DNA of 64,000 nt from Pyrinomonadaceae bacterium (lineage in GTDB: Bacteria; Acidobacteriota; Blastocatellia; Pyrinomonadales; Pyrinomonadaceae), in the NCBI GenBank assembly GCA_019694355.1, contig JAIBCB010000001.1, positions 711,001 to 775,000 on the forward strand, given 5' to 3'. The notes below the pieces were generated by a model that was not told the origin of the DNA, did not search any database, and saw nothing but the letters and a program-made list of their open reading frames with translations. The position numbers were made by a program, and so were the translations under genes. This document shows positions 2,912 through 24,954 of the stretch, piece after piece; position 1 is the stretch's first letter, and every line of letters begins with the position of its first letter.

Positions 2912-3556
2912 CTATTTTCGAGCCTCTGCTATCGCATCCAGCACGCGCCTAGCCCTCTCGGTCACTTCGCTTGCTCGACCTTGCTCGATGGCTTTAAGAT
3001 CAACGAGATCGGATCCAAGCCCGACGGCCATCGCTCCCGCTCTAATATGATCCGATGCCGTATCGACGGTTACACCGCCTGTCGGAACAACTTTCAGGTC
3101 CGGAAAAGGAGCTCGAAGCGAGCGAATGTAATCTGCGCCTCCGACCGCTCCGACCGGAAAAACTTTCACGACCGCCGCTCCGGCACTAAGGGCGGCTGTG
3201 ATCTCCGACGGTGTCAACACGCCCGGCATAACAAGTGTTTCATTGGCGACACAGACACGTATAACTTCCGGAATGGTCGCCGGACTGATGATGAATTTCG
3301 CTCCAGCGTCTATACAGCGCTGTGCGTCATCGGCCGACATTAGCGTCCCGGCGCCGAAAAGGACATTCGGCATTTCACGCACAAGCTTAGCTAAAAGATC
3401 GACGGCGTTCGGGACCGTAAGTGTAACCTCGATCGTGTCGATCCCACCCTTGCATACGGCTTCGATGGCACGATGGGCCGCATCGGCGGAACCCGCCCGA
3501 ACGACCGGCAGCACCCCGGTCCTTGATATCCGCGAAATGGTTTCCTCTTTTGTCAT
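2912..3556 (-). CDS. eda: KDPG/KDPGal-type 2-keto-3-deoxy-phospho-sugar-acid aldolase
   Basis: This 214-residue class I aldolase should cleave 2-keto-3-deoxy-6-phosphogluconate (or its galactonate epimer) to pyruvate and glyceraldehyde 3-phosphate in the cytoplasm. Visible are Glu43 in IEVTL, the FGAGTL strand, the Schiff-base Lys131 in VVKVFP, and the phosphate-binding TGGV and GLGSDL loops. The E. coli enzyme has Arg two residues after the TL (Glu45...Arg49). Here the equivalent is Thr47 (EVTLTVP), closer to the DgoA (KDPGal aldolase) pattern EIPLNSP, so sugar specificity is open. It is divergent from the KDG kinase at 3712, which would make its substrate, across about 155 bases that should hold both promoters. 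Length is normal for the family. Confidence 0.88.
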   Translation of the reverse strand: MTKEETISRISRTGVLPVVRAGSADAAHRAIEAVCKGGIDTIEVTLTVPNAVDLLAKLVREMPNVLFGAGTLMSADDAQRCIDAGAKFIISPATIPEVIRVCVANETLVMPGVLTPSEITAALSAGAAVVKVFPVGAVGGADYIRSLRAPFPDLKVVPTGGVTVDTASDHIRAGAMAVGLGSDLVDLKAIEQGRASEVTERARRVLDAIAEARK

Positions 3557-3711
3557 CGGCTTCTACTCCACCCTGCGGGTTTTCTTAAGACTTTGAGTAT
3601 AACCAAACAGTTCCGGAGTGTGAAAGCCAACTCGTCAGCAATGGTGAATTGCGAATTTTGCTGATTCAATTTAATCTCAGCTATGGGCGTGAAGATCACG
3701 AGACTCGTTCA

Positions 3712-4770
3712 ATGCTGAAAGTTCGAAAAAGAGATGAGTGCAAGTGGGACATTGTTTCGCTCGGGGAAGTCATGCTCAGATTCGATCCGGGAGAAGAGCG
3801 GGTGCATACGGCTCGCACCTTCCGCGTCTGGGAAGGAGGCGGCGAATACAATGTCGCCCGCACACTCGCTCATTGCTTTCGCTCCCGTGCGTCAGTCATC
3901 ACGGCACTTGCCGATAACCAGATAGGGCGGCTCGTCGAGAGCCTGATATATCAAGGCGGTGTTGACACGTCGAACATCATTTGGCGTGAAACTGACGGTA
4001 TTTCCGGCAATTATCGAAATGGTCTTAATTTTGTGGAGCGTGGTTTTGGCCTTCGTTCTCCTTCAGGTTGCTCTGATCGAGCCAACACCGCGATCGCAAA
4101 GCTCAAAGTGAATGACGTGGACTTTTCGTCGATCTTCGCCGATCAAGGCTCTCGTTGGTTTCATACAGGCGGAATCTTTGCAGCATTGTCTCCTGAGGCG
4201 CCGGGTGTTGTCATCGAGGCAGTGCGTGCTGCCCGTGCGAATGGCTCGATCGTTTCATTCGATCTAAACTACCGAAGTTCGCTCTGGGAGGGTCGCGGCG
4301 GAATAGACGCGGCAAACGCCGTCAATCGAATGCTTCTTGATGAAGCGGACGTTGTATTTGGCGTTGAGGGCTTTGACGCGAGACTTGCGTCGTTTTCCAT
4401 CGAAGACTTCGAAAACTCCGCTCGTGCGATGATAACGAGACACCCATCTCTTAAGGTGGTTGCGACTTCGTTGAGAGACGTCGTTTCCGCGTCTCGACAC
4501 AACATTGGTGGAGCGTTGTTCACAGAGGGCAAGACATTCGTTGGACGACAATTTACCGACGTCCAGGTCCTCGACCGCATCGGCAGCGGCGACGCGTTTG
4601 CATCCGGCATCGTGTTCGGGATGTTAGAAACTTTGGAGCCTCAGAGATCGATCGACCTTGCAGTCGCAAATGCCGCCTATGCCGTTACGTGTCCGGGAGA
4701 TGTCTCAACGGCAAGGCTCGCAGACCTTGAGACGTTGCTTGGCTCTGATCTCCCTGAGATCAAACGATAG
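3712..4770 (+). CDS. kdgK: PfkB-family sugar kinase, probable 2-keto-3-deoxygluconate kinase
   Basis: A ribokinase-like (PfkB) kinase of 352 residues from ATG 3712. Seen are the N-terminal SLGEVMLRFDPGE strand, the substrate-binding WEGGGEYNVARTLA segment, and the C-terminal signature DRIGSGDAFASGIVFG with catalytic base Asp294. The N-terminus matches KdgK-type kinases that phosphorylate 2-keto-3-deoxygluconate to KDPG. That fits the divergent aldolase gene, although kinases for other 2-keto acids look alike. The frame opens at TTG 3649, but the extra 21 residues do not look like kinase and ATG 3712 restores the family N-terminus. The glycine-rich signature is GSGD rather than the commoner GAGD, a tolerated change. 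The gene is followed by the ROK regulator after 34 bases. Confidence 0.82.
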   Translation: MLKVRKRDECKWDIVSLGEVMLRFDPGEERVHTARTFRVWEGGGEYNVARTLAHCFRSRASVITALADNQIGRLVESLIYQGGVDTSNIIWRETDGISGNYRNGLNFVERGFGLRSPSGCSDRANTAIAKLKVNDVDFSSIFADQGSRWFHTGGIFAALSPEAPGVVIEAVRAARANGSIVSFDLNYRSSLWEGRGGIDAANAVNRMLLDEADVVFGVEGFDARLASFSIEDFENSARAMITRHPSLKVVATSLRDVVSASRHNIGGALFTEGKTFVGRQFTDVQVLDRIGSGDAFASGIVFGMLETLEPQRSIDLAVANAAYAVTCPGDVSTARLADLETLLGSDLPEIKR

Positions 4771-4804: not shown

Positions 4805-5998
4805 ATGGCAAATTTCAACGGACCTTCAATTCGAATGGTTGGCGTCAACGATATTCGGGATATCAACCAGACGATCTTCTTACACCTGATCCGTGAGCAG
4901 CAGCCGGTCTCTAGGGCCGATATCGCAAAGCAAACAGGCTTGAGAGCTGGTACGGTCTCGGCGATCGTTAATCGCTTGATCAAGAGCGGCTTGGTTCATG
5001 AGGGAACTGAAGGGCCATCGACCGGCGGGCGCCGACCGAAAAATCTTTACATCAACGCTGAGAGTTTTTATGTCCTTGCGATCGACATCGGAGTCGTCGA
5101 TACGGTTTTTGCAGTAAGCGATTTTAACGGGCGAGTTTTGAAGCGAAAGAGTATCTTGACCACGAATAAACCGTTAAAGTTTCTCGACCGGTTGTGCAGC
5201 GAGATCGAGAAACATATCTCCGAAAATTATTCTAAAGCGCGCTTTGGCGGCATCGGAGTGAGTGTTCCCGGCCTCATCGACCGCGAGAGCGGTTCGATCG
5301 AGATCTCTCCGAACCTTGAATGGAAGGATGTTCCACTGCGCGACATTCTTTCAAAACGGCTCGGCCTGCCGGTCTTTGTCGAGAACGACGCGAATGCCGC
5401 CGCGTTCTCTGAATTTTGGTATGGGCCAATAAACGAGGCAAAGGTCAAGAATTTGCTCTTTGTTCTCGTGGTCGAAGGCTTGGGTACGGGTTTGATCATC
5501 AACGGCGAACTGCACGTGGGTTCGCGCCACGGCCTTGGAGGTTTTGGCCACATGAGCATCGACCCAAATGGTGAACTGTGCTCCTGCGGCCGCAGGGGCT
5601 GCTGGGAGACATTCGCCTCCGAACGGGCAACCGTCGAGAGGTATCACCGAGTCACGGCCAAGCCTGGAGAGCCTTTGGTGACCGTTAAAGAGCTAATAAA
5701 TCTCGCAAATGACGGCGACAAGATGGCGCTTGAGTCATTGAAGATAACTGCTGAATATCTCGGTGAAGGTATTAGCAACTTGGTCCATGGCATCTTCCCG
5801 GAAACCGTCGTGATAGGCGGTAATGTTACGGCCGCGTGGCCGCTAATTGAATCGATCATTCTCGAAAAAGTTAAAAGTCGATACATCGTCTCCCCGGACC
5901 AGGTCACGATACGTCCGGCAAGCGTTGAGCGCCCCAGTCTCTATGGGGCGATTCCGATCGCTCTTCAGAATTGTGTCAGTTCCGGCCTGCTCTCGTAA
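4805..5998 (+). CDS. ROK-family transcriptional regulator (NagC/XylR type)
   Basis: The 397-residue protein has an N-terminal winged helix (about residues 15-75, with LREQQPVSRADIAKQTGLR as the helix-turn-helix) and a ROK sugar-kinase-like domain. The ROK domain shows DIG at the first strand, VSVPGLID, ENDANAAAFSE and the zinc-binding motif CSCGRRGC with Cys259, Cys261 and Cys266. ROK repressors of this build release DNA when a sugar or sugar derivative binds. It lies between the KDG kinase and the symporter of the sugar-acid locus, so it is the likely local regulator, and a candidate operator sits at 6049-6068 right after it. The start at ATG 4805 was chosen because earlier codons overlap the kinase gene; no strong ribosome-binding site decides between it and ATG 4835. 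Confidence 0.88.
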   Translation: MANFNGPSIRMVGVNDIRDINQTIFLHLIREQQPVSRADIAKQTGLRAGTVSAIVNRLIKSGLVHEGTEGPSTGGRRPKNLYINAESFYVLAIDIGVVDTVFAVSDFNGRVLKRKSILTTNKPLKFLDRLCSEIEKHISENYSKARFGGIGVSVPGLIDRESGSIEISPNLEWKDVPLRDILSKRLGLPVFVENDANAAAFSEFWYGPINEAKVKNLLFVLVVEGLGTGLIINGELHVGSRHGLGGFGHMSIDPNGELCSCGRRGCWETFASERATVERYHRVTAKPGEPLVTVKELINLANDGDKMALESLKITAEYLGEGISNLVHGIFPETVVIGGNVTAAWPLIESIILEKVKSRYIVSPDQVTIRPASVERPSLYGAIPIALQNCVSSGLLS

Positions 5999-6231: not shown

Positions 6232-8079
6232 ATGACCCTCTCCGCAATAGATCAAGTCATCGTCGTGTTGTATTTAGCGGCGATCATGAGTATAGGCATC
6301 GCGATGAAGCGTCGAGCTTCAAAAGGAATGTCGTCCTATTTCCTTGGCGGCAGGCAGTTGCCTTGGTGGGCGCTCGCGATGTCGGGGTCGTCGTCCTATT
6401 TTGATATCACCGGGACGATGTGGATCGTCTCGACCTTTATCGTACTCGGCTTAAAAGGAATGTGGGTTCACTGGCTGTGGGGCTTTCCGATCACAGCCTT
6501 TTATTTGGCCTATATGGGCAAATGGATACGCCGTTCTGATGTGATGACCGGAGCCGAATGGATGATGACGCGCTTCGGCACCGGACGGGCCGGAGACATC
6601 GCCCGGCTGTCATACACTCTTTTTGCAGTTCTGACCATCACGGCCCTGCTCGGCTATGGAGCCATCGGGATGGGCAAATTCGGGGCGATCTTCTTACCAT
6701 TCTCGCCGACGGTATGTGCGATCTTGATCCTTGGCGTTACGGGCATTTACGTCGTTGCCGGCGGATTCCACGGCATCGTAAGGGTCGAGATCGCACAAAC
6801 TATAGTCCTGAGCGCCGGGGCGATCGCTTTTGCGATCGTTGGCTATTTGCATTTCGACGCCGCAAAATTCGCAGCCTTGGTGCCCGCTTCGTGGATGGAG
6901 ATCTTCCCATCTTCGGCCACTCCAACGGACCTCAGTGGCGTGATCTCCGGCGGAACAGACTATTCATTGTTCGGCGCTTTGATGGCCGTTTGGGTGCTGA
7001 AGGGTTTCTTGCTGTGCCTTAGCGGCCCTGAACAGCTTTATGATTTTCAACGCTTCCTGGCTGCAAAGGATGAGCGTGACGCCTCGAAACTCGGGGCCCT
7101 TTGGGGATTGATACACACAGTTCGTTGGCCGTTCGCGATGGCGATCGCGATCATGGCCATCATGGGAATCGGGAATGCCGCGTTGGATCAGCAGCTGCGT
7201 GCGGACCCGGAAACTGCTCTTCCGTTGATCATCGGTACGATGTTGCCGGTTGGCCTCGTCGGCTTTATGCTGGCGGCGCTTTTGTCAGGGTTTTTGGCAA
7301 CATTTAGTTCGACGGTCAACGGGGGAGCGGCTTATCTAGTTAAGGATGTTTATCAGCGGTACATAAATCCAAAGGCTGATGCCAAGAGACTTGTTCACGT
7401 AAGCTACTTCTCGTCGGCTCTCCTGATCATCGTCGGACTGATAATTTCGGTATTTGGCACCTCGATCAACTCGGCATTCCTTTGGATATTCGGCACGCTT
7501 GCCGCGGGAATATTGCCTCCGAATGTCCTTCGTTGGTATTGGTGGCGCCTTAACGGGTGGGGCTATGCTGCCGGCGTCTTTGGAGGAATGGTCCTCTCGC
7601 TCGGTCAGGTCGTTCTCGACACCACCTATTTGAACGAACCATTGCCGCTGTATATCGGCTTTCCGGTGATCGCGTTGGCGTCATTTATATTGACGATCGC
7701 GGTTTCGCTCGCAACGGAGCCGACGAGCATCGATACTCTTAAGATCTTTTATCGAAAGGTTCAACCAGCCGGATTTTGGAATCCGCCACGCACCGCCGTT
7801 CTTTCCGAGGAGCCAGACTTCAAGAAGCAATCTCCGTTCGCACGCGACGTTATTAATACTCTGATCGCTCTGGTCGGCATTACCGCTCTGTACGTTTCTA
7901 CGCTCTATTTGATACTGCACCGTTTATCTGTCGCTTTCGGACTAATTGCGGCAGCCGTCCTGTCGGTCATTATTTTGTATTTCACCTGGTATAAACATCT
8001 GCCGCCTGCGCGGACGCCGGAAGATTATGACGAAGAACTTCAAACGCACGGATCTGCCGAACAAGGAGAGGCCGCATGA
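6232..8079 (+). CDS. Sodium:solute symporter (SSS family)
   Basis: A 615-residue polytopic inner-membrane protein with about 14 hydrophobic segments. It opens with MTLSAIDQVIVVLYLAAIM and the family hallmark of a conserved glycine-rich FLGGRQLPWWALAMSGSSSYFDITG. This is the pattern of the sodium/solute symporter family, which imports sugars, sugar acids or other organic acids with Na+. The C-terminal 100 residues include a further membrane pair (FARDVINTLIALVGIT, LSVAFGLIAAAVLSVII) and a hydrophilic tail. A strong AGGAG precedes ATG 6232. Its last codon overlaps the SDR start (ATGA at 8076-8079), so the two are translationally coupled. The neighbourhood (KDG kinase, dehydratase, SDRs) suggests a sugar or sugar-acid substrate; the exact one cannot be read from sequence. 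Confidence 0.88.
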   Translation: MTLSAIDQVIVVLYLAAIMSIGIAMKRRASKGMSSYFLGGRQLPWWALAMSGSSSYFDITGTMWIVSTFIVLGLKGMWVHWLWGFPITAFYLAYMGKWIRRSDVMTGAEWMMTRFGTGRAGDIARLSYTLFAVLTITALLGYGAIGMGKFGAIFLPFSPTVCAILILGVTGIYVVAGGFHGIVRVEIAQTIVLSAGAIAFAIVGYLHFDAAKFAALVPASWMEIFPSSATPTDLSGVISGGTDYSLFGALMAVWVLKGFLLCLSGPEQLYDFQRFLAAKDERDASKLGALWGLIHTVRWPFAMAIAIMAIMGIGNAALDQQLRADPETALPLIIGTMLPVGLVGFMLAALLSGFLATFSSTVNGGAAYLVKDVYQRYINPKADAKRLVHVSYFSSALLIIVGLIISVFGTSINSAFLWIFGTLAAGILPPNVLRWYWWRLNGWGYAAGVFGGMVLSLGQVVLDTTYLNEPLPLYIGFPVIALASFILTIAVSLATEPTSIDTLKIFYRKVQPAGFWNPPRTAVLSEEPDFKKQSPFARDVINTLIALVGITALYVSTLYLILHRLSVAFGLIAAAVLSVIILYFTWYKHLPPARTPEDYDEELQTHGSAEQGEAA

Positions 8080-8861
8080 GATTTGACGGGAAGACGATCG
8101 TCGTAACGGGTGGAGCACTCGGTATCGGGGAAGCCGCATCTAGGTTGCTTGCGGAACGCGGCAGCCAAGTCTCTATCGTTGATTGGGACGACGAAGCAGG
8201 GAACGCGACTTGCGCAGCGATCGAAAAGGGCGGCGGCAGGGCGATCTTTACTAAAGCGGATGTCTCTGATAGGACAGCGGTCGAAAATGCGATCGCTAGT
8301 ACGATCGAGACTTTTGGCGGGATCGACGGCTTGATAGTCAGCGCCGGCATCCAGCGATATGGAACCGCATTGACCACTTCTGACGACCAATGGGACGAGG
8401 TCCTGGGCGTGAATCTGAAGGGAGCGTGGAACGCTGCACGAGCGGTCATCCCGCATCTGCAAAGGGCCGGGAAAGGCAGTATCGTCAATGTTTCTTCAGT
8501 CCAGGCCCTTGCAAGTCAGCAGAACGTGCTTGCATATACGGTCAGCAAACACGCGCTGCTTGGGCTTACGCGGTCTATCGCGATGGATTTCGCAAAGGAA
8601 AACATTAGGGCAAATGCTGTTTGTCCGGGGACTGTGGATACGCCAATGCTGCGTTGGGCCGCATCGCTAGATCCGGATCCACAGTCGGTTTATGACGCAT
8701 GCAGCCAAATGCACCCACTCGGTCGAATAGCAAGTCCGAAGGAGATAGCCGAAGTTGCATTATTTCTGGCACACGAAAGTTCGTCTTTTGTAACCGGCTC
8801 TGTCTGGACGGCGGACGGCGGATTGTTGACACAGATCGGCGGCGTTCCGCAAACAAATTGA
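8076..8861 (+). CDS. SDR-family dehydrogenase (sugar-acid type)
   Basis: A classical short-chain dehydrogenase/reductase of 261 residues. The nucleotide loop is TGGALGIG (residues 11-18), Asp36 in VDWDD after strand 2 favours NAD+, and the catalytic set is Asn114, Ser140/Ser141, Tyr154 and Lys158 (YTVSK). The usual NNAG is replaced by VSAG. It is translationally coupled to the symporter and sits in a locus with an acid-sugar dehydratase and an FAH hydrolase. Oxidation of a sugar, a sugar lactone precursor or a 2-keto-3-deoxy acid is therefore the likely task. A second SDR lies at the far end of the locus (22723). Family certain, substrate inferred. Confidence 0.85.
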   Translation: MRFDGKTIVVTGGALGIGEAASRLLAERGSQVSIVDWDDEAGNATCAAIEKGGGRAIFTKADVSDRTAVENAIASTIETFGGIDGLIVSAGIQRYGTALTTSDDQWDEVLGVNLKGAWNAARAVIPHLQRAGKGSIVNVSSVQALASQQNVLAYTVSKHALLGLTRSIAMDFAKENIRANAVCPGTVDTPMLRWAASLDPDPQSVYDACSQMHPLGRIASPKEIAEVALFLAHESSSFVTGSVWTADGGLLTQIGGVPQTN

Positions 8862-8882: not shown

Positions 8883-9929
8883 ATGAGTGATTCATCTTCA
8901 GCAGAACAAACGAAAGCCCATCCGGAGATAACGCAGTACCTGCCGCCTCCGGGGCTTGATGCCGCACTGGCGGCCGTTCCATTGGTCCGTGCCGATAAGT
9001 ATCCGGCAAAGATCGGCTATCTCACGAACTATAGCTTTCACATTTGGTATCAGATCGTGATCGAGATCTTAAAGAGGCGAGGTGGACAGTATCGATCGGA
9101 GATCGTCATTAAAGACGCGGAATTGAGTGTCGAACGGCAGATCGAGCAAGCAAGGGAACTCGTCGAGGAGGTCGATGTGATCATCCTTACACCGGCAGCG
9201 ACCGAAGGCCTCGAAGAGATCTTAAAGATCGCCGAAGCGGCTGACACTCCGGTCGTCGTCGAAGCAAATCCTGTAGAAGGGATGAGCACGCTCGTTGCTA
9301 TCTGCGACTACGATGCCGGATACGATATGGGCGTCTGGATAGGACGGAATGTCGTAGCTGCAAATGGCGCGCTGAGGATACTCGACGTTGGGCTTCCCAC
9401 CTTGCGGCCGTGTTTGCTTCGCAGCGAAGGATTTGCCGACGGAGTTCGCAGCATTCAACCGGACGCGGTCGTTGTGGCATCAATAAACGGAGAAGCTACT
9501 CCGTCCATTGCCCGCCGAATCGCCCTTGAAACGCTCAAAGAAACCGGAGACGTCGATGTGATCTTCGCTATGGATGATGAAACCGGACAAGGAGCGTATC
9601 AGGGGTACCTAGATGCGGGCTTCGACCCACAGACCGTGACGATCGCAGGGTTTGGCCTTGCGGGAGAGCACGAAAAGGACTGGCTGCTAGAGCGAAAAGC
9701 CCTAAAGGTGAGCGCCGCTATGTTCCCTGAATATGTCGGCCTTCGCTGCATTGACGGAGCGGTCAGATTGTTCAACGGTGACGCAGTTCCTGTAAGAGAT
9801 GTGATCCCGACAATACCAATGACGGTTGAATTGCTTGAGATCTACTACTCAAAAAAGGATGGTGTTTGGACGCCGAACTTGAATGCGATCGGAGCTATTC
9901 CGACAAAAGGCGAGTGCACGAAGATTTAA
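8883..9929 (+). CDS. Periplasmic-binding-protein-fold sugar-binding protein without signal peptide
   Basis: The 348-residue product has the type I periplasmic binding fold of the RbsB/LacI sensor family. It shows AKIGYLTNYSFHIWYQIVIEIL at strand 1, a VIILTPAATEGLEEIL segment, TPVVVEAN, DYDAGYDMGVWIGRNV, a hinge at SEGFADGVRSI, then VDVIFAMDDETGQGAYQGYLDAGF and VTIAGFG. The N-terminus is hydrophilic (SDSSSAEQTKAHPEITQ) with no signal peptide, lipobox or membrane segment, and no DNA-binding domain. No ABC permease or ATPase is nearby. As written it should be cytoplasmic, perhaps a sugar sensor or a part of a signalling pair. The alternative is a mis-set start, but no in-frame upstream start gives a signal peptide. 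It lies between the SDR and the TonB receptor on the same strand. Confidence 0.72.
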   Translation: MSDSSSAEQTKAHPEITQYLPPPGLDAALAAVPLVRADKYPAKIGYLTNYSFHIWYQIVIEILKRRGGQYRSEIVIKDAELSVERQIEQARELVEEVDVIILTPAATEGLEEILKIAEAADTPVVVEANPVEGMSTLVAICDYDAGYDMGVWIGRNVVAANGALRILDVGLPTLRPCLLRSEGFADGVRSIQPDAVVVASINGEATPSIARRIALETLKETGDVDVIFAMDDETGQGAYQGYLDAGFDPQTVTIAGFGLAGEHEKDWLLERKALKVSAAMFPEYVGLRCIDGAVRLFNGDAVPVRDVIPTIPMTVELLEIYYSKKDGVWTPNLNAIGAIPTKGECTKI

Positions 9930-9980: not shown

Positions 9981-12900
9981 ATGAAGACAGGAATTTTTAA
10001 TGAGATCGCAAAAGCGGTGACTGCCATCGCCATTACGTTGACGCTCTCGATAGTCGCGTTCGCCCAGTCGAACACCGGAACGATCACCGGCACCGTTCAG
10101 GATGCGAATGGAGCTGCGGTTCCAAACGCGAGTGTCAAGGTTACGAACGTCGGCACGAACGAGACCAAGACGGTGGTGACGGACAGCAACGGAGTTTATA
10201 TCGCACCATCGCTTTCAAATGGGGTTTACAAGGTTAGTGCAACGGCCTCGGGGTTCCAGCCGACGACCGTTACTGACGCAAGACTTGCTGTTGGCGACAC
10301 TCTAAGGGTCAACATTTCGGTGAAGGTTCAGGGTGTGGAGGCCACGGTCGAAGTTACAGCAGACCAGACACCGACTGATACCGAGACGGCTACTCTTGGC
10401 GATACTGTCCTTCAGGCACGCATTCAGGATAACCCTGTAAATGGACGCGACTTCACGCAACTCCTTGCTACCGTTCCCGGATCGGTCCAGACGACCAACC
10501 AGTTCCAGACAGCCATCAATGGAATCCCATCAACCTTTGGCGGGTCAAGCGTTCTTGTTGACGGCGTCGATGCGAGCCGCGTGGATGTCAACGGAACCTC
10601 GAACGTGCTGGGCAGGATCGAATCGCGCGTTAACCGCGTGAGTATGGACAGCATTCAGGAAGTTCAGGTGCTGGAACAGAACTACTCGGCCCAGTATGGC
10701 CAAGCACTCGGCGCCGTGATAAATCCGATCACCAAATCGGGAACGAACGATCTGCACGGGAGCATATTTGAGTATTTTCGTAACGAAGGCTTGGATGCGG
10801 GTGATGCCCTTGCAGGAAAGCAGCGATTTCGGCTCAATCAGTTCGGCGGAAATCTGAGCGGCCCGATCGCGAAGGATAAGTGGTTCTTCTTTGCAAACTA
10901 CGAAGGCGTCCGCCAGACCCGCGGCCAAACATTTAACCAGCTCGTTTATACACAGCTGTTCAGAAACGGCTTGGCACCGGCGCTCAGGCCGCTGGTTGAC
11001 ACAATTCCTTTACCTCAACGGCCGTATATTCAACCATTGACCGGCCTTGTCGATCCTAACCTTGGCGAATATCAAGCTCAGCGGATCGCTAAACTTAGAG
11101 AGGACACCGGCTCAGTAAAGATCGATTTTCAGCAGAGTGATAAAAGCAGATTCTCTGCCCGTTACAACATCAATGATTCCAACACCACTACACCGTATGG
11201 TGTTGGCCTCGGCCAAGTCGCACCGGGCAAACTGCGGGTGCAGCTCTTTAAGTTCGCCCACAATTACGCATTTAACGCGAGTACGACGAATGAATTTGGT
11301 TTCGGGATCAATCATAACTTTACGGATGTTGGAGCCGGTGACGAACAGTTTCCGCGAATCGATCTTTCATTCGTAGATTTTAGGATCGCGACGCCCGGCC
11401 CGGCGCAGTTCAGTCAGCGAAGAACCGGTGTTGTGTATCAATTTCTCGATACGATGACGATGATCCGGGGCGATCACACGCTTAAATTCGGGACAGACAT
11501 CCGACTTAATCGACGGGCGGCCCTCTCGAGGGAGCAGTACACGCTCACATTCTTTGGCCTCGCGGGCGGCCCGGGATCAACGAGTTTCCAAGCTAACGAG
11601 CCTTTTGTGATCTCGCGTGGTGGAAATCCTGATCTTGACTACGCTAATGAGAATTTTGCCTTCTTCATCAATGACAACTGGCGCGCACATCCGCGGCTTT
11701 CGCTCAATCTCGGGCTTCGGTACGACGTGAGCACCGTGAGCCGTGAAAAGAATGGACTGCTTCAGAATTTTGACCTTACGACGATGAATTACACGCCGCA
11801 GGGCCAAAAGATCCACAATGTGGACAAGAACAACTTCGGTCCGCGAGTTGGTTTTGCATTTGATGTCTTCGGCAACACGAAAACGGTCATTCGAGTCGGG
11901 TATGGAATTTTCTATAACAGAGAGTTGCCCGCGAGCTACGGCTCGCCCGCAGCGAACTCTTTCCCACAGACGCAAACGAACCTTTTCGACTGGCTTTTCT
12001 GTGCCACGCCGCCGCCGACGTTCTCGTATCCGGTTGATCCCAGAGTCTTTGATTGCGGTGTGTCATCGGCTTATGTCATCGAGCGCGATCTGAAGACCGC
12101 GATGGCGCAGCATTGGTCACTTGGCATTCAACAGAACATCGGCTTTGGCACCATTCAGGCTGCGTATGTTGGCAATCACGTGACTCACATTCTTACAGAT
12201 GGTGTGGTATCGCCCAGGAACATCAATAGGGCAGATCCGGTTAGCGGCGTTCGTCCTCTCACGAGTAGATTTGGCGACATTTACGCCGTCGGCGGATATC
12301 CGCAGTCGAACTACAATGCGATGCAATTGACGTTTAGGCGCAACCTGACGAATGGCCTTAGATTCAATGCCAACTACACGTGGTCGCACACGATCGACGA
12401 TGTTGTCGGGTTCTTTAAGGACTATCAGGACGAGAACAACGCACAGGCAGAACGAGCCAGCTCGGATCAGGATGTACGCCATAACTTCACACTTGATGCA
12501 GGCTACGACCTCAAGTTCCGAAAATGGTTCGGAAATGGTCCAAAATGGTTGATCGACGGATGGCAGATCAATTCGATCGTCCAGATCCGCAGCGGACTAC
12601 CTGTCACGATCACGAGAACAGGCGGGATCTTTTCCGGGTTTTCCTTCCGGCCGAATATCGTCCCGGGAGTTGATCAATATTGTCAGCCATACAGCGTACC
12701 GAACTGCCAATTCAATCCTGCCGCGTTCTCGGATCCAGGTCCGGGCGTATTCGGTAACGCAGGTCGAAATATCCTCCGCGGACCAGGTTTCGCACAGGTT
12801 GATGCATCGCTATTTAAGAACACTCAGCTTACGGAACGGATGTCGCTGAATTTGAGGATCGAGGTCTTCAACCTCTTCAATAGAGCGAACTATGCGGATC

Positions 12901-13046
12901 CTTCGGGCGGTATCTCCTGCGGCGGTTCGGTCGGTGCTTGTTCGGCCTTCGGACGCAGTACATCGACAGTCGGAAACCAGCTTGGCGGTTTGCTCGGATT
13001 TGGCGGCCCGAGACAAGTCCAGCTCTCCGCCCGGTTGAATTTCTGA
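9981..13046 (+). CDS. TonB-dependent receptor with carboxypeptidase-like N-terminal domain (Oar type)
   Basis: A 1021-residue outer-membrane receptor. Residues 1-29 are a signal peptide ending in AFAQ. Residues about 33-125 are a carboxypeptidase regulatory-like beta-sandwich (GTITGTVQDANGAAVPNASV). About 140-245 is the plug (PVNGRDFTQLLATVPG ... VLVDGVDASRVDVNG). The rest is a 22-strand-type barrel rich in NFGPRVGFAFD-like strands, ending in the aromatic terminal residue Phe (SARLNF) expected for BAM-dependent insertion. Acidobacteria carry many such Oar-like receptors without SusD partners, and none is found here. GGGAGG precedes the start. Placed before exported glycosidases, it probably brings oligosaccharides across the outer membrane. 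A hairpin follows the gene. Confidence 0.88.
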   Translation: MKTGIFNEIAKAVTAIAITLTLSIVAFAQSNTGTITGTVQDANGAAVPNASVKVTNVGTNETKTVVTDSNGVYIAPSLSNGVYKVSATASGFQPTTVTDARLAVGDTLRVNISVKVQGVEATVEVTADQTPTDTETATLGDTVLQARIQDNPVNGRDFTQLLATVPGSVQTTNQFQTAINGIPSTFGGSSVLVDGVDASRVDVNGTSNVLGRIESRVNRVSMDSIQEVQVLEQNYSAQYGQALGAVINPITKSGTNDLHGSIFEYFRNEGLDAGDALAGKQRFRLNQFGGNLSGPIAKDKWFFFANYEGVRQTRGQTFNQLVYTQLFRNGLAPALRPLVDTIPLPQRPYIQPLTGLVDPNLGEYQAQRIAKLREDTGSVKIDFQQSDKSRFSARYNINDSNTTTPYGVGLGQVAPGKLRVQLFKFAHNYAFNASTTNEFGFGINHNFTDVGAGDEQFPRIDLSFVDFRIATPGPAQFSQRRTGVVYQFLDTMTMIRGDHTLKFGTDIRLNRRAALSREQYTLTFFGLAGGPGSTSFQANEPFVISRGGNPDLDYANENFAFFINDNWRAHPRLSLNLGLRYDVSTVSREKNGLLQNFDLTTMNYTPQGQKIHNVDKNNFGPRVGFAFDVFGNTKTVIRVGYGIFYNRELPASYGSPAANSFPQTQTNLFDWLFCATPPPTFSYPVDPRVFDCGVSSAYVIERDLKTAMAQHWSLGIQQNIGFGTIQAAYVGNHVTHILTDGVVSPRNINRADPVSGVRPLTSRFGDIYAVGGYPQSNYNAMQLTFRRNLTNGLRFNANYTWSHTIDDVVGFFKDYQDENNAQAERASSDQDVRHNFTLDAGYDLKFRKWFGNGPKWLIDGWQINSIVQIRSGLPVTITRTGGIFSGFSFRPNIVPGVDQYCQPYSVPNCQFNPAAFSDPGPGVFGNAGRNILRGPGFAQVDASLFKNTQLTERMSLNLRIEVFNLFNRANYADPSGGISCGGSVGACSAFGRSTSTVGNQLGGLLGFGGPRQVQLSARLNF

Positions 13047-13196: not shown

Positions 13197-16031
13197 ATGA
13201 ATAAAAGATTTGCCGTTCCGATCCTAGCCATTCTCGCTCTCCTCCCACTATTTGGGCTCGGTCAGGATAAGGTGCCTGACAGCTCGATAAAGACGATCTA
13301 CATTACACCCACATCCCATTACGACTTTGGCTTTGTCGAGCCGCCGGATGCGGTTCGCGAACGGGCTGCGAGACATATCGACGAGGTTATTCGCGTCGCC
13401 GAATCGGACCCAAACTTTCGATGGACCATTGAGAGTGTTTGGCAAGTAAATGAGTGGCTTAAAAGAGCGGTAAAACCGACGTCCGTTCTCCCAAATGACC
13501 GAAAAAAGATCGCTCGCCTGATGAACTTGATAAGGTCCGGCCGCGTAGCATTGTCGATGTCGTGGGGCAGTATGCATACGGATTTTATGGGCGCTGAAGA
13601 GTTGAATCGCCTTTTCCTTGACTATGCAAAGCTTCGCCTCACATACGGAATAAGCTCAGAGTTCGCTCTTATGGATGATGTTCCCGGACATCCCTCAACT
13701 ATACCGAGCGTCTTGGCTGGCAGCGGCGGTAAATATCTGGTCATCGGTGCAAACACATTTATCAACAACGCAACATCTCTTGCACCAGGAAACGTACCGT
13801 TCTATTGGCAATCACCGGATGGAAGCAAGGTTCTAACTTGGATAACGCAAAGTCCGCGAGGCGGCTATACGGAGGCCTTGACAGACTATTTTCTTGACCC
13901 GTATTCACTCGACCCATACACCGATCGTACGCCTTTCGAAATGTTCGAGCCGAACCTTGCCGAAAAGCAAAACCCGCTACAGAGAATGGAATTCGGTGTA
14001 AAGGCCCTTCTAGATCGCTACAACAAGGCGGGCTACAAATACGACGCCGTGATGACGATCTATGCACACGATTTCATCGAGCCCGACTATGTTAAGAATC
14101 TGGAGCGAGCCGTCAACCTTTGGAATTCAAAGCATAAGGGCGTGCGGCTCAAGATCGCGACGCCTCCTGAATTCTTAGACCATATTGAAAGCAAGTACGG
14201 CCCGCAGATACCGACATTTCGTGGCGAATGGTCGGGGTTGTGGAGCGAGGCAAAAACGCAATCGCCAAGGATATCGGCCATTGCTCGTTACGATCACGAT
14301 CACGTTCCTGTCGCCGAAACACTCTGGAGTGCGGTCGCTATGACCCGCCGGATCCCGTTTCCCGCCGGCAATTTGACCGAGCTTTACGACCTGATGTTCA
14401 CATATGATGAGCATAGCGGCGCCGGAAATACGGGTTGGCCCCAACTCAACAAGGCCGAGGCACTAAGCGAACAAAATCGTCAATACGTAGATATGGCGAT
14501 AGCCGGAAAAGCTTCGGTCGATAGACTGCTGAACACAGGTATCAAGACTCTCGTTCAATCGTCGAGATACGACGATCCTCAGACAGTTCCTGCCGATCGT
14601 TGGTTCTCGGTCGTTTATAACGGATTGTCCTGGACTCGGGATGATGTCGTCCGTCTCAGGCCGCCCCGGAAGGACACTAAGATCGTAAGGGTCCGCGACG
14701 TGGTATCCAAAGCGGACATTGCCTTCGACATTGACGAGAAAGGCAATGCCGTCTTTATTGCAAAGCAAATACCGGCGTTCGGCTATAAGACATTCGCGAT
14801 CGAAATCGAACCCGGAACGGCAACCTCAACCTTGCGAACGGTCTCGTCAAATGAGATCAAGAACGATCGCTTCAGCGTTCGGGTCAACAAGAAAGGATCG
14901 ATCGAGAGCATCTTTGATAAGTTGGCCGGACGTGATCTTGTCAATCCGAACGGCGAAATGCCGTTCAATGAACTGCTTCGAGTCGAAGGCAGCGATGCAT
15001 CAACCGTTGTTTATCCAGAAGAGCCGAATGTCTTAGTGAGAGCCGGTGACGTGATGTCTGAGATCGTGATCCGGCGTCCACGTTCGGTTTTTCCTAGCAC
15101 AAGATTGACGATCTACAAGGGAATCGGCGAAGTTCAGATCCGAAATGAGCTCGATCCAACGGAAATGCCATTTGTGGGCGGAAACGGCAACTGGAGCGAT
15201 TCTTACTATTTCGCCTTTCCAATGAACGTTGCAAAAGACGGCCTCAAAGTGATCCGTGGCGGACAAAAGTGGCTGGACACACTTCCTGACGACTACCTGC
15301 TGGGTGCCCGACGGGATTCGGTCACGACACAACATATTATTGGACTTACGAACGGCTCGACTACGGCCTATATAGCCCATCGCCAAGCCTTTTACTGGGT
15401 GTTCGCCGGCTACGTAAGCACAAAAGTGCGGGCGATGAATGCACCCAAAGAGTTTCCCGCTCTTTATACCGGTAAATGGCCGCTACCTGAGGCTACGCTC
15501 TATTCTCGTGCGATCCGCCACGGTTCGCAGGCCGATACTAACGACCTTGGCGTCGTAAATATGCCGACAGTTGAGCCGGGAATGTCCGGCCGATATGTTT
15601 ATGAATATGCGGTCGCGGGTGGAAGTACGCGTGATGATGTCGTCGCGAAACGCCTCGGCCAGGCTCTTAATCTTCCGTTGATCGCAGAATACGTACAGGT
15701 GCCGCCTTCAAGTTCTAAGGAAGGCTATTTTGCCATCGATCAGCCAAATGTGGAGATAGTCACCGTTAAACCGGCCGCATACAATTCAGCCCGCGGCGAC
15801 GTAAGTGCATCGCCTCTTGATCCGCCGATCAACAAGACTTTCGTCATTCGCGTGCAGGAGTTTGCTGGAAAGAAGACATCTGCGACGATTACGCTTCCGG
15901 CGAAGATCCGATCCGCCACAATGGTCGATCTTACTGAGAGCAAAGTTCTAGGTGACATCGCGCAGATATCGCCGTTGACCATCAACCTGCAGCCATACCA
16001 GACCGCAACGATCCGCGTAGTTGTGCAGTAG
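13197..16031 (+). CDS. Exported GH38-family alpha-mannosidase-like glycoside hydrolase
   Basis: From ATG 13197 the product has 944 residues, beginning with a signal peptide (about 1-22, PLFGLGQ). The N-terminal half is a GH38 domain. His41-x-Asp43 in PTSHYDFGF are the expected zinc ligands. Asp161 in MDDVPGHPS matches the zinc-bound nucleophile of the family (DPFGHS in typical members), and a YAHDFIEPDY segment and RGEWSGLWSE follow. The C-terminal half is beta-rich (about 480-940), as in GH38 enzymes. GH38 enzymes cleave alpha-mannosides with retention and need a divalent metal. The frame opens at 13143, but the signal peptide sets the start at 13197 (GAGGTGATG; a GTG at 13194 is also in frame). 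The divergence of the core motif leaves mannoside specificity unproved. It is followed by the Tat-exported glycosidase after 16 bases. Confidence 0.78.
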   Translation: MNKRFAVPILAILALLPLFGLGQDKVPDSSIKTIYITPTSHYDFGFVEPPDAVRERAARHIDEVIRVAESDPNFRWTIESVWQVNEWLKRAVKPTSVLPNDRKKIARLMNLIRSGRVALSMSWGSMHTDFMGAEELNRLFLDYAKLRLTYGISSEFALMDDVPGHPSTIPSVLAGSGGKYLVIGANTFINNATSLAPGNVPFYWQSPDGSKVLTWITQSPRGGYTEALTDYFLDPYSLDPYTDRTPFEMFEPNLAEKQNPLQRMEFGVKALLDRYNKAGYKYDAVMTIYAHDFIEPDYVKNLERAVNLWNSKHKGVRLKIATPPEFLDHIESKYGPQIPTFRGEWSGLWSEAKTQSPRISAIARYDHDHVPVAETLWSAVAMTRRIPFPAGNLTELYDLMFTYDEHSGAGNTGWPQLNKAEALSEQNRQYVDMAIAGKASVDRLLNTGIKTLVQSSRYDDPQTVPADRWFSVVYNGLSWTRDDVVRLRPPRKDTKIVRVRDVVSKADIAFDIDEKGNAVFIAKQIPAFGYKTFAIEIEPGTATSTLRTVSSNEIKNDRFSVRVNKKGSIESIFDKLAGRDLVNPNGEMPFNELLRVEGSDASTVVYPEEPNVLVRAGDVMSEIVIRRPRSVFPSTRLTIYKGIGEVQIRNELDPTEMPFVGGNGNWSDSYYFAFPMNVAKDGLKVIRGGQKWLDTLPDDYLLGARRDSVTTQHIIGLTNGSTTAYIAHRQAFYWVFAGYVSTKVRAMNAPKEFPALYTGKWPLPEATLYSRAIRHGSQADTNDLGVVNMPTVEPGMSGRYVYEYAVAGGSTRDDVVAKRLGQALNLPLIAEYVQVPPSSSKEGYFAIDQPNVEIVTVKPAAYNSARGDVSASPLDPPINKTFVIRVQEFAGKKTSATITLPAKIRSATMVDLTESKVLGDIAQISPLTINLQPYQTATIRVVVQ

Positions 16032-16047
16032 CAAGGATTTATAGTTT

Positions 16048-18273
16048 ATGAGCAGACTCGAACGAAGAGATTTTCTAAAAGCCGCAACCGCCAGCCTTGC
16101 CGTGCCGGCGTTGTTAAAAAGTTCTGCCGTTGGTGAGACACACGGATCTTTTCCAGTTCCCGCCAGCGCGCCGCTTCCGGACATTCCGACGTCAGATTCG
16201 CTCCAGAGCGTCGTGATGACGCACAAGTTTGGCGATCATTTCAATCCTCCGGGCCTCACAAATCAGTGGGGCTGTGCTCAAGCTGCGATGGATGTCGCCG
16301 CGGTCCGCAGTATCGCATTTCCCCCTTTTGCTCAAGGTGAAATGAATGTTGCACCTTTGGGCGCAGGCGGTGAATTATTGACGGGTGTTCTTTACGTCGA
16401 TGGGGAATACTTCGCCGCAACGAAGACATCGATCGAGTTCGTTTGGCGGCCCGATCGGATCGAAAGACGCTCAGAATACAAAGGGCTTGAGCTCTCGAGC
16501 ACCACGATCGTCCCATTTAAATCAATGACGACCGCGGTAAAGCTGACCATCAAGAACATCGCGACCCGGCGTCGAAAGACTGAGATCAAACTGGCGGTCA
16601 ACGGCGGGGCAACAAAGAGCGTAAAGCCGTGGAACGCTGCATATTCCCCGGGCGAATATGACAACGACCGCGTTATCGACGCGTCACGCAATGCGATCCT
16701 TTGCAAGTCAAAACGGACCGAAGCCTTCGTGCTGCAAGGCTCTTCTCCCAAACCGACGCAGTTGCTGCCGTCGTGGCTGATCTATGAGTTCGACCTTGCG
16801 CCCGGAGAAGCCAGATCGATCATATTCGTGAACTCGATGGGAGCAGACGCTGATGAAGCACGCCGCGGCTATGATGCCGTCGTAAACAGTTTCGATGCGG
16901 CCGCGAGAGCAACTACCGACGAATGGGACGCACAACTTGCCGCGGCATTCACGCCCGGCAATAAGATCTTTTCCGGGCATCTTCCGACCCTTATAACAAA
17001 AGACGAGGACGTTAAGCGGCTTTATCATTCGGCCGTGATGAGTGCGTTGTTCTTTCGAAGGACTACACCTCACTCGGTTTACGGCACCACATACGTCACG
17101 CTCGCTCCGCGATATTGGGAAACAACGACATTTCTCTGGGATATCTCCTTGAGCGCGATGCTGCTCGCGATGCTTGATCCAGCAGTGCTTCGGCGAATGA
17201 TCGAAACGTGGATGACGCTCGACGTCTATAAGCACTTTGGGACCGAATTTCTCACGGGTGCGGGCGTCGGGCCATGGTATTCGGTCAACGATTACGCAAT
17301 GTCCCGAATGGCGAAGGAATATCTTCGGTGGACGGGCGACAAGCAATGGCTTGAGAAGGAAGTTGGAGGCATAAAGGTCTTTGACCGCCTGATCCAATAT
17401 GCCGAGCATTGGCGTGCACTCGATACCAACGGCCACGGGCTCGCAGACTACGGCGGCGTCACCAATTTGCTCGAAGCTGTTTCGAGCTACGTGCATGAGG
17501 TCGCCGGACTGAATGCAGCAAATGTCTATAACCTTCAGTTCGCGGCCGAACTCCTTGACCACAAAGGCCAGACGGATAAAGCGGCAAGCTTCCGCAAAGA
17601 GGCCGACGAGCTTGCACGCCGTGTGAATCACCTTTACGTCGATGGAAAGGGCATCTGGAAGTGCCGCTTACCTGACGGATCCTACAACGAAGTTCACCAT
17701 TGCTATGATTTTGGTGTCACGCTGATGACGATCGGTGACACAATGCCGGCAAAGCAGAAAAAAGAGATGGTCGCGTTCTTCCAACGCGAACTTCAGACGC
17801 CGACGTGGATGCGGGCGCTTTCGACCCGCGATCTTGACGTAACGTTCAGTATCCGCCCAGATCATCAATGGACGGGCGCATACTGCGCTTGGCCGGCCCT
17901 TGCATTGAGCGGACTTTTTGCGGCGGGCGAAAATAAGGTGGCTCGCGACTGGATGATCGGCCTATCAAAATCCGCACAGCAGGGTCCAATCGCTCAGGCT
18001 CATTTTGTTGAGGATTTTGTTAGCCCCGAATCGAACGGCGGTGCGATAAAGGCGCCGTCAGATCCGCCGTTCATCAATGACTGGGCTTGCGTATCTGGGT
18101 GCAATTATCTTGAACCTATCGTCGATTCTATCTTCGGCGTGAACGCAGGCCTCTTTGGAGAGATCGCCGCGAAGCCGAATTTCACAGGCTTCGATCAGAG
18201 TGCTGAACTCCGAAATATCAACTATCAGGGTAAGAAATACTTTGCAACCAAGGACGGAGTAAGACCGGCCTAG
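16048..18273 (+). CDS. Tat-exported six-hairpin (alpha/alpha)6 glycosidase-like protein
   Basis: The 741-residue product begins with a twin-arginine signal (RRDFLKAATASLAVPALL), so it is folded before export. Residues about 50-300 are a beta-rich N-terminal domain. From about 330 onward the sequence has the pattern of a six-hairpin toroid: TTFLWDISLSAMLLAMLDP, MAKEYLRWTGDKQWLEKE, HGLADYGGVTNLLE, NLQFAAELLDHKGQ, DHQWTGAYCAWPALALSGLFAAGE. This resembles GH63/GH15/trehalase-like clans, where an acidic residue near the WD or the DH..W segment acts as catalyst. I cannot place it in a numbered family. Pairing with the GH38 gene in one transcript suggests joint attack on one glycan. The Tat route hints at a bound cofactor or rapid folding. 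Confidence 0.68.
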   Translation: MSRLERRDFLKAATASLAVPALLKSSAVGETHGSFPVPASAPLPDIPTSDSLQSVVMTHKFGDHFNPPGLTNQWGCAQAAMDVAAVRSIAFPPFAQGEMNVAPLGAGGELLTGVLYVDGEYFAATKTSIEFVWRPDRIERRSEYKGLELSSTTIVPFKSMTTAVKLTIKNIATRRRKTEIKLAVNGGATKSVKPWNAAYSPGEYDNDRVIDASRNAILCKSKRTEAFVLQGSSPKPTQLLPSWLIYEFDLAPGEARSIIFVNSMGADADEARRGYDAVVNSFDAAARATTDEWDAQLAAAFTPGNKIFSGHLPTLITKDEDVKRLYHSAVMSALFFRRTTPHSVYGTTYVTLAPRYWETTTFLWDISLSAMLLAMLDPAVLRRMIETWMTLDVYKHFGTEFLTGAGVGPWYSVNDYAMSRMAKEYLRWTGDKQWLEKEVGGIKVFDRLIQYAEHWRALDTNGHGLADYGGVTNLLEAVSSYVHEVAGLNAANVYNLQFAAELLDHKGQTDKAASFRKEADELARRVNHLYVDGKGIWKCRLPDGSYNEVHHCYDFGVTLMTIGDTMPAKQKKEMVAFFQRELQTPTWMRALSTRDLDVTFSIRPDHQWTGAYCAWPALALSGLFAAGENKVARDWMIGLSKSAQQGPIAQAHFVEDFVSPESNGGAIKAPSDPPFINDWACVSGCNYLEPIVDSIFGVNAGLFGEIAAKPNFTGFDQSAELRNINYQGKKYFATKDGVRPA

Positions 18274-18300
18274 CTATTTGGTGCAATGCGAGGACTGAAA

Positions 18301-19215
18301 ATGAAACAGAGATCTATCAGCACTCAAGCCGTAACGATCATATATTTACTTGCGGTCATATTTATCGGCTCTCTCTCTTTACGAGCGCAGGAGACAACGC
18401 CTGTTTTGCTGCAGATCGCAGATCGCTATTGGATGCAGCCTGACGTCGTTTACGGGACCGCGAATAACACGCAGTTGAAGCTTGATATATGGTATCCACG
18501 AGACAGCACTACCCCGACGCCAACGGTAGTGTTTATCCATGGAGGCGGCTGGATCTTTGGTGCAAAAGAAGGTGCTGTGTATCAATTGCTTCCATACCTT
18601 GAACGCGGATGGCGGGCCGTCAACGTGGAATATCGGATGGCAGGGAATTCACTTGCACCGGGCGCTGTCGAAGACGTTCGCTGCGCGGTTCGTTGGGTCT
18701 TTAGAAATGCAAAGCAGTGGAATTTTGATACCTCGAAGATCGTCCTGACGGGACAATCTGCCGGTGGACATCTCTCTCTGATAGCCGGAATGTTGCCGAA
18801 AGGTTCTCCGCTTGATGATCGGTGTTATGGTGATGAAGATTTAAAAGTTGCGGCGATCGTTAATTGGTATGGCATCACCGATGTTAACGACCTTTTGCAG
18901 GGACCGGATCTCAAGAACTATGCAAAAATGTGGATGGGAAGCCAGGCAAATTCTGCTGTCATAGCACGTCAGGCTTCGCCGCTCACGTATGTTCGCTCCG
19001 ACCTCCCACCGATCATCACGATTCACGGCGACAAAGACAGTGTAGTGCCGTATAGCCACGCGACTCGCCTGAAAGCAGCTTTGGACGAAGTTCACGCAAC
19101 GAACAAGCTTGTGACGATCAAAGGCGGTGACCACGGGATGTTCACGCAGGATCAATATAAGATGGCCTATTCGGAGATCTGGAGTTTTTTAAGGGAGAAT
19201 AAGGTCATTAACTAA
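18301..19215 (+). CDS. Exported alpha/beta-hydrolase (carboxylesterase/deacetylase-like)
   Basis: A 304-residue protein with a signal peptide (residues about 1-31, ending LRAQE) and an esterase/lipase fold of the HSL/BD-FAE type. The oxyanion motif is HGGGW ([16 protein letters not shown]). The nucleophile elbow is GQSAGGH, the acid is probably the Asp in [13 protein letters not shown], and the histidine is in GGDHGMF. Such enzymes in glycan loci remove acetyl or other ester groups from sugars. An earlier in-frame ATG at 18286 exists, but GCGAGG lies correctly before ATG 18301. It is part of the run of exported enzymes, 27 bases after the six-hairpin gene and 11 bases before the dehydratase gene. 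Confidence 0.82.
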
Positions 19216-19226
19216 TTCGTTCGAAG

Positions 19227-20486
19227 ATGAAGATAACTGATATCAAAGCCACTACCGTTACGGTTCCTCTTGAAGCTCCGCTTCGGCATGCGGCCGGCTG
19301 TCATTGGGGCAGATTTGTGAGAACCATCGTCGAGGTCGAAACGGACGAAGGCATTACGGGCCTTGGTGAAATGGGCGGCGGCGGCGAATCGGCCGAGGCG
19401 GCATTTCGAGCGATGAAAGGCTATCTTGTCGGTCACGATCCTGCGCGGCTCGAAGAGATGCGCTTTAAGATCGCGAATCCGACCGCCTCGCTCTACAACA
19501 ATCGCACACAGATCCTCGCGGCTCTCGAATTCGCGTGTCTCGACATCCTCGGAAAGAAGTGGAACGTCCCCGTTCATGAGATCCTCGGCGGAAGATTGCA
19601 GTCGGAGGTGCCGTTCGCGTCTTACTTGTTCTTTCGATACGCACACCCAAGAACGGGTGAAGGTGAGGTTCGAACGGTCGATCAGTTGGTTCAACATGCG
19701 AGGGAATTGAAGGAGAAATATGGCTTCACCTCTCACAAGCTAAAAGGCGGTGTGTTTCATCCGGAATATGAGCTGCGCTGTTATCAAGCGCTCGCAGAAG
19801 AACTTGGTTCTGATACACAGAGCGGCGACAGCTTTCGATTTGACCCGAATGCAAGCTGGTCAACGGAACAGGCAATCTGGTTCGGCCAACAGATCGAAAA
19901 TATTCGGAACGATTATTTTGAAGACCCGGTCTTTGGCCTCCACGCAATGCGGCGAACGCGCGAAAAGGTCAGAATGCCGCTTGCGACGAACACCGTAGTT
20001 GTTAATTTCGAGCAATTAGCGGCCAACGTTCTCGATACCGCAGTCGATGTGATACTGCTGGACACGACATTCTGGGGCGGCATTCGTCCATGTGTAAAAG
20101 CCGCAGGAGTGTGCGAGACGTTCCAGCTTGGAGTTGCAGTTCATTCTTCGGGCGAGCTGGGAATTCAGCTTGCGACTATGCTTCATCTCGGGGCGGTGAT
20201 CCCAAATCTTACTTTTGCTGCGGATGCTCACTATCATCACCTAGAAGACGACATTATAGTTGGCGGCAAATTCGAGTATCACGAGGGACGCATCTCAGTG
20301 CCGACCGGGCCCGGCCTCGGTGTCGAGTTGGATCGCGATAAGTTACATGAATACGGCGAGCTATATAAACGGCTCGGCGGATACGCGTATGACAAGGATC
20401 CGCTTCGCCCGGACTGGTCACCGGTCGTTCCAAACACTCGCTGGGCTGACCCGAATGATGATCGCCAGCCAAAGATCGCGTATTAG
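19227..20486 (+). CDS. Enolase-superfamily sugar-acid dehydratase (glucarate/fuconate dehydratase type)
   Basis: A 419-residue cytoplasmic enzyme of the mandelate racemase/muconate lactonising group that dehydrates an aldonic or aldaric acid to a 2-keto-3-deoxy acid. The N-terminal capping domain is followed by the barrel with K171-x-K173 (SHKLKGG), Asp206-x-Asn208 (FDPNASW), Glu232-Asp233, Asp279 and His306 (AVHSSGELG). This KxK / D-x-N / H set is that of glucarate dehydratase (E. coli Lys207, Asp235, Asn237, His339). The protein is about 25 residues shorter than E. coli GudD, and the FAH/SDR partners point as well to a fuconate- or galactonate-like substrate. It probably makes the 2-keto-3-deoxy acid that the kinase/aldolase or the SDR/FAH pair then uses. 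Confidence 0.83.
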
Positions 20487-20490
20487 CTGT

Positions 20491-22716: not shown

Positions 22717-22722
22717 AGAGTG

Positions 22723-23502: not shown

Positions 23503-24954
<1,452 letters not shown>

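Follow-up and report, generated by a model that had tools for sequence, protein, structure and literature searches.

A signal-less protein of the sugar-binding-protein fold in a Pyrinomonadaceae catabolic locus, a possible cytoplasmic sensor

Introduction

Why should a catabolic locus whose likely inner-membrane importer is a sodium:solute symporter (SSS) encode a protein with the fold of the substrate-binding components of ABC sugar transporters, and why should that protein have no recognisable export signal? The gene in question lies at positions 8883..9929 (+ strand) of the 64 kb stretch of Pyrinomonadaceae DNA analysed here (the window). Family-based annotation would suggest that it encodes a sugar ABC substrate-binding protein, and hence that there is an ABC uptake system, which the locus does not show. 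We therefore asked what the protein is, whether its N-terminus and its neighbours agree with export, how firmly it is tied to the locus, and what its ligand cleft and the nearby regulator suggest about its role.

Results

Fold and family of the 8883-9929 protein

The open reading frame starts with ATG and encodes 348 amino acids, a signal-less protein of the type I solute-binding-protein fold. It is not a chance open frame, because 20 aligned orthologues are 58-91% identical to it and syntenic. Its sole Pfam family is PF13407 (Peripla_BP_4; residues 45-294, 67.7 bits against a cut-off of 35.1), and the Pfam scan found no HTH or kinase domain. NCBIfam gives sub-threshold matches to YtfQ and RbsB, and the relatives found by sequence in the PDB are YtfQ-type proteins and RbsB. 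An AlphaFold2 model built from 21 sequences has a mean pLDDT of 86.8 and a pTM of 0.84, and residues 1-11 are its only segment with pLDDT below 50. The best Foldseek match of the model in the PDB is MSMEG_1712 (E 8.5e-15), in the neighbourhood of sugar-binding proteins of ABC systems; VIA-align 2 gives structural Z values of ~27-28 (best 28.4; RbsB, YtfQ and GGBP-type proteins) over an aligned span of up to residues 39-344. A preliminary description of this DNA had called the protein a complete RbsB-like binding protein with neither a DNA-binding nor a kinase domain, and the Pfam score, the model and Z values near 28 bear this out. It is likewise not built as a LacI-family repressor, which would have an N-terminal HTH (PF13407 stands alone here and ~42 residues precede strand 1), nor as a BT1754-type hybrid sensor, which would have kinase and receiver domains (here there are 348 residues and one Pfam domain).

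The N-terminus

The N-terminus is hydrophilic in the window protein and in all 23 orthologous loci in which it can be read (a 24th locus, L027, lacks its 5' end and was left out of this count), and by eye and by hydropathy none of these 24 proteins has a recognisable signal peptide or lipobox; read by eye, they have neither a basic n-region nor a lipobox. The 21 aligned members instead share a layout in which a variable polar stretch is followed by the motif Y-x-x-P-P-x-L-D-x-A and then by strand 1. This conserved N-terminal arm (8937..9005, + strand; residues 19-41) stands where exported relatives have their signal peptide, and its residues Y19, P22, P23, L25, D26, A28 and P41 are invariant in 21/21. 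Ahead of strand 1, the highest-scoring Kyte-Doolittle window of 10 residues gives 0.65-2.04 in the 21 members versus 2.37-3.43 in 11 of 12 exported controls. This score agrees with the lack of a signal but is not decisive alone, because the twelfth exported control, encoded by a neighbouring gene and Tat-like at its N-terminus by eye, scores 1.79 and one of the five cytoplasmic controls (a dehydrogenase) scores 2.11. PF13407 matches two more proteins of this genome, one at 188.9 bits and one, below the cut-off, at 27.1 bits; both begin with a hydrophobic signal that ends in a lipobox-like Cys, and the 27.1-bit match adjoins an ABC ATPase.

Could a start codon have been missed? In the window a stop codon closes the frame only four codons (GDNL) upstream of the ATG, and none of the four is a possible start, so a missed upstream start that supplies a signal is ruled out there. 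Several orthologues (e.g. those of L009, L018, L023 and L026) do have earlier in-frame starts; the residues these would add are unconserved and by eye none is signal-like, the nearest thing to a signal being a short hydrophobic stretch in L026 that lies inside the end of the upstream SDR1 gene. The preliminary description had reported the absence of a signal peptide and lipobox, and had named signal-bearing orthologues or a missed upstream start as what would speak against it; neither was found, since all 23 readable orthologous N-termini lack a recognisable signal and the window offers no start further upstream.

Genes of the locus

Upstream of the binding-protein gene lie a KDPG/KHG aldolase gene (2912..3556, - strand; PF01081), a KDG-kinase-like PfkB kinase gene (3709..4770, + strand; its NCBIfam matches are below cut-off, and it is present in 7/24 fetched loci), a regulator gene of winged-helix plus ROK architecture (4805..5998, + strand, from a chosen start codon; the mechanical ORF begins at TTG 4658), the SSS symporter gene (6232..8079, + strand) and the gene for a short-chain dehydrogenase, SDR1 (8076..8861, + strand), whose top sequence match in the PDB bears the name glucose 1-dehydrogenase. 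Downstream, all on the + strand, are genes for a CarboxypepD_reg/TonB-dependent-type outer-membrane protein (9981..13046; the next downstream gene in the orthologous loci, where visible), a GH38-type glycosidase with a signal peptide by eye (13197..16031, a chosen start; the mechanical ORF begins at 13143), a conserved protein of 741 aa whose N-terminus looks Tat-like by eye (16048..18273), a BD-FAE-type esterase with a signal peptide by eye (18286..19215), an enolase-superfamily (MR_MLE) sugar-acid dehydratase (19227..20486; nearest NCBIfam glucarate dehydratase, below cut-off), a DUF5005 protein (20458..21813, start uncertain), an FAA_hydrolase family enzyme (21826..22716) and a second short-chain dehydrogenase, SDR2 (22720..23487). 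Searches of Pfam, NCBIfam and the PDB sequences gave no match to the 741-aa protein, which is found in 28/119 genomes of the family Pyrinomonadaceae; our guess is that it is glycosidase-like. Just downstream of the locus two Beta_elim_lyase genes stand back to back (23503-24909, - strand, and 25021-26415, + strand).

The symporter, SDR1, the dehydratase, SDR2, the FAA-hydrolase-type enzyme, the KDG-kinase-like PfkB and the aldolase together suggest oxidative degradation of a sugar, an assignment that presumably holds from what is generally known of these enzyme families. The sugar, which cannot be named, is suggested to be one freed by the exported GH38 enzyme and its neighbours.

No partner of the ABC kind is nearby. 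The ABC-ATPase signature (a Walker A followed by DEPx) is absent from the 64 kb window and from 24/24 orthologous loci (419,552 bases), and the same scan was positive in 6/6 ABC-bearing control loci. Permeases were sought among the Pfam-scanned locus genes of the window, where there is neither an ABC nor a TRAP partner. The preliminary statement that no ABC transporter is near holds to this extent, for the ATPase in all 24 loci and the window and for permeases in the scanned window genes.

Linkage of the gene to the locus

In 21/21 loci in which both neighbours can be read, the gene is flanked by SDR1 and by the gene for the TonB-type outer-membrane protein; the remaining three of the 24 loci are cut by contig ends. 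A symporter orthologue of at least 75% identity is present in 26 genomes of the family, and 25 of these also hold the binding-protein gene; in the exception, G317, only 162 nt of the contig remain after SDR1. Two highly fragmented assemblies (G276 and G297) have fragments of the binding-protein gene and no symporter match. Among the 28 genomes that have the 741-aa neighbour we found no locus that keeps the pathway, with its upstream half intact, and lacks the binding-protein gene: three of them have no binding-protein match, namely G310 and G317, in which the contig ends first, and G311. The G311 locus (L048, G311:C96:78500-98400) is cut inside the 741-aa gene (the match begins at residue 139) and its upstream half is missing, with very large ORFs in its place; a deletion or a misjoined contig is possible.

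In the window the spacing is operon-like, with a 4-nt overlap of the symporter and SDR1 genes followed by gaps of 21, 51 and 150 nt; elsewhere the binding-protein gene is separated from its two neighbours by up to ~300 nt. A promoter scan found no site where shuffling predicts 5.7. Sister SSS symporters that are 37-38% identical (L093 and L094, the latter cut upstream) lie beside other glycan-degradation genes, by eye, and have no binding-protein gene with them.

Distribution and nearest relatives

The binding protein is encoded in 27/119 Pyrinomonadaceae genomes, and the locus is also present in Pyrinomonas methylaliphatogenes K22 (L021). A class-wide profile search (E up to 1e-20) gave 27/162 genomes, the same 27 as the search within the family, and in a phylum sample (E up to 1e-25) it was found in 5/247 genomes, all Pyrinomonadaceae. 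A looser phylum profile search (E up to 1e-12, with up to five candidates scored per genome, in 396 genomes drawn from a larger group) matched 15 genomes, 11 of which carry the protein family. Beyond the family itself it brought up six distant matches (two in genomes of those 11), which look like ordinary RbsB-like proteins: five have a lipobox by eye and several lie beside ABC genes. Candidate signal-bearing orthologues elsewhere thus came to nothing, the class search returning the same 27 genomes and the phylum search adding distant RbsB-like proteins only. Among plasmid records 26/72,556 match at 23.8-28.3% identity and none covers 80% of the query. Beyond Acidobacteriota the search for distant members covered the PDB, the plasmids and 14 control genomes, and the contig scan finds close relatives only.

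By these searches the protein family is a discrete one, separated by a wide gap from its nearest relatives within the phylum. Because those relatives appear to be exported, an origin by loss of the signal would fit. One of the six distant matches, from a different family of Acidobacteriota (L082, G008:C86:12357-13109 and flanks), is an RbsB-like domain that shares one long open frame with a preceding glycosidase, GH32-like by eye; this is an apparent glycosidase/binding-protein fusion, with an rbsA-type ATPase gene just downstream.

The ligand cleft

Is the cleft that would hold a ligand conserved, and is it still an RbsB-like cleft? With the cleft defined by the strand ends in the DSSP string of the model, 48/72 core positions in the ligand-side loops that follow the strands are invariant, versus 55/208 other core positions (Fisher p 1.9e-9); in the far-side loops 9/67 positions are invariant. 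Because the invariant residues concentrate in the cleft-forming loops, the modelled ligand site is probably under selection. Similar conservation would be expected in exported binding proteins, and it would suit an enzyme or a carrier equally. The invariant residues of the cleft loops include His53, Cys177, Asp231, Asp232, Glu233 and Glu283; in all, the protein has four invariant cysteines.

Twelve positions of the RbsB pocket were mapped, with the contacts, apart from R90, as named in the accessible part of PMC5557919; the alignment used is of low identity, and an individual position could be misplaced by several residues. RbsB D89 and R90 align to a gap, where the family has an invariant E127-A-N-P; R141 (R180 here) and F214 (F257 here) are kept, N190 is replaced by D231 and Q235 by M280, and no Asp stands opposite D215. 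Of D89, R90 (which we take to be a sugar contact in RbsB), R141, N190, D215 and Q235, only R141 is kept, so the protein does not retain an RbsB-like set of sugar contacts. Nevertheless 8 of the 10 pocket positions that have a residue in the query are invariant in 21/21 members. The picture is of a conserved site whose contacts are probably other than those of RbsB.

The ROK regulator and other candidate partners

The ROK protein is the only regulator found among the locus genes scanned. Its ExGH motif reads GGFGH, with the Glu replaced by Gly in 20/20 aligned orthologues; NagC and Mlc keep this Glu, and so does the one of the genome's two further ROK proteins that is in the alignment. According to the accessible part of PMC5458393, the ExGH motif interacts with the sugar substrate. 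The loss of its Glu is consistent with a repressor that has given up the usual mode of sugar recognition and so would leave room for a separate sensor. On the other hand, the regulator keeps ENDAN, the CxCGxxGCxE parts, the His of ExGH and the Glu of GCWE, and because ENDAN and these two residues are kept it may sense a ligand alone. No ANTAR gene was found among the Pfam-scanned locus genes; a search of the genome was also empty, which is to be read with the fact that its control was positive in 0/14 control genomes.

Discussion

From the N-termini and the gene neighbourhood, the 8883-9929 protein and its relatives appear to be cytoplasmic. Our preferred reading, to which we give close to an even chance, is that it is a cytoplasmic ligand-binding protein derived from an exported RbsB/YtfQ-type ABC binding protein, and that it acts as a sensor on a partner protein, for which the ROK regulator is the most plausible candidate. 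In this scheme the ancestral protein would have lost its signal peptide and its transporter, gained the short conserved N-terminal arm, and become a fixed part of a catabolic locus fed by a sodium symporter rather than by an ABC transporter. It would bind the imported sugar or, more likely because the pocket has changed, an intermediate of the oxidative route (an aldonate or a 2-keto-3-deoxy acid). The closed form would then alter its partner, perhaps the ROK regulator encoded upstream, and the operon would respond to the internal substrate; such a circuit would follow the logic of AmiC and NasS, though both the sensor family and the partner differ. The preliminary description had proposed a cytoplasmic sugar sensor: the sensor part is plausible and is the reading we favour, but the word sugar is unsafe, given the absence of the Asp-Arg pair, Asp215 and Gln235 contacts. 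What weighs against a sensor is that both of the cytoplasmic binding-protein sensors cited below pair with ANTAR antiterminators (accessible part of PMC3795266).

Four other explanations must be considered. It is unlikely, in our estimation, that the protein has no regulatory partner and serves as a cytoplasmic buffer or hand-over protein, keeping hold of a pathway compound (the imported sugar, a lactone or some other intermediate) on its way from the symporter to SDR1 and the dehydratase. Its gene does follow those of the symporter and SDR1 at short gaps in the window (wider in some loci), and both the conserved cleft and a locus with ROK as its sole scanned regulator would agree with such a role; but a buffer would need high protein levels, and we know of no soluble carrier of the type I binding-protein fold that serves a symporter. 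Rather unlikely, too, is a cytoplasmic sensor whose partner is not ROK, one that gates the symporter or acts on an unlinked regulator. The tight linkage of the symporter gene and the possibility that ROK senses alone speak for this, and against it we can say that control of an SSS symporter by a binding protein is a case of which we know no example.

That the protein has become a pathway enzyme, its former sugar cleft rebuilt as an active site (e.g. for a lactonase, epimerase or mutarotase step that links SDR1 to the dehydratase), seems to us improbable. No lactonase family turned up in the scan of the locus genes (matches to SGL and Lactonase are confined to another contig), the cleft loops carry the invariant His, Cys and acidic residues listed above, and cyclohexadienyl dehydratase is a binding protein turned enzyme (accessible part of PMC7683729). 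Against this, no catalytic motif was recognised, Amidohydro_2 candidates exist elsewhere in the genome, and some orthologous loci have an extra esterase between the ROK and symporter genes (L008: PF00756). Moreover, lactones can hydrolyse spontaneously, and cyclohexadienyl dehydratase derives from a different class of binding protein. Finally, an ordinary periplasmic binding protein still exported beside the TonB-type receptor by a signal that escapes recognition is very improbable, for although its fold relatives are exported and the locus has a periplasmic half (the outer-membrane protein, GH38, the 741-aa protein and the esterase carry export signals by eye), the lack of a recognisable signal at all 23 readable orthologous loci, of an ABC or TRAP partner among the scanned genes and of an ABC-ATPase signature all point the other way.

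If the sensor reading is true, binding proteins of the sugar type have joined those for nitrate and amides in becoming cytoplasmic components of pathways, and the Pyrinomonadaceae locus would directly test how a symporter-fed pathway reads its internal substrate.

How does the 8883-9929 protein compare with known systems? It shares its fold and PF13407 with RbsB/YtfQ-type proteins (MSMEG_1712, E. coli RbsB and YtfQ), and differs from them in having no recognisable signal and no nearby ABC ATPase and in having the conserved N-terminal arm; relative to RbsB, Asp89-Arg90, Asp215 and Gln235 are not kept and Asn190 has become Asp, while Arg141 remains. LacI-family repressors use the same ligand-binding fold for sensing, as do BT1754-type hybrid sensors (the BT1754 domain, 2x7x, is among both the sequence and the structure matches); these sensors carry their own output domain, an HTH in LacI and a kinase in the BT1754 type, whereas by Pfam the present protein has none.

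AmiC is cytoplasmic and of the type I fold, in the amino-acid/amide-binding branch, and was not retrieved as a sequence relative of our protein. Like the role proposed here, its role is that of a small-molecule-binding sensor of a catabolic operon, but its partner is an antiterminator; AmiC-AmiR is cited as possibly sharing the mechanism of NasS-NasT (accessible part of PMC3795266, as for the statements on NasS that follow). NasS reportedly lacks the signal sequence of its relative NrtA, is predicted to be cytoplasmic, and on binding nitrate releases NasT. The likeness is thus to a binding-protein homologue without a signal sequence that controls an assimilation gene cluster; the differences are that NasS is related to NrtA and not to PF13407, that its ligand is nitrate and that its partner NasT is an ANTAR protein, of which there is none among the present locus genes scanned. 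The three features of this AmiC/NasS kind, a binding-protein fold, no recognisable export signal and linkage to a catabolic locus, are all found in the 8883-9929 protein. Given these two precedents (accessible part of PMC3795266), the preliminary description went too far in calling such a role poorly described for this fold. Among the open-access literature matches listed, as judged from titles and the openings of abstracts, neither this family nor a cytoplasmic PF13407 sensor in a polysaccharide locus is described. Signal-less binding-protein sensors therefore have precedents, and what is new is this family, its origin among sugar-binding proteins and its linkage.
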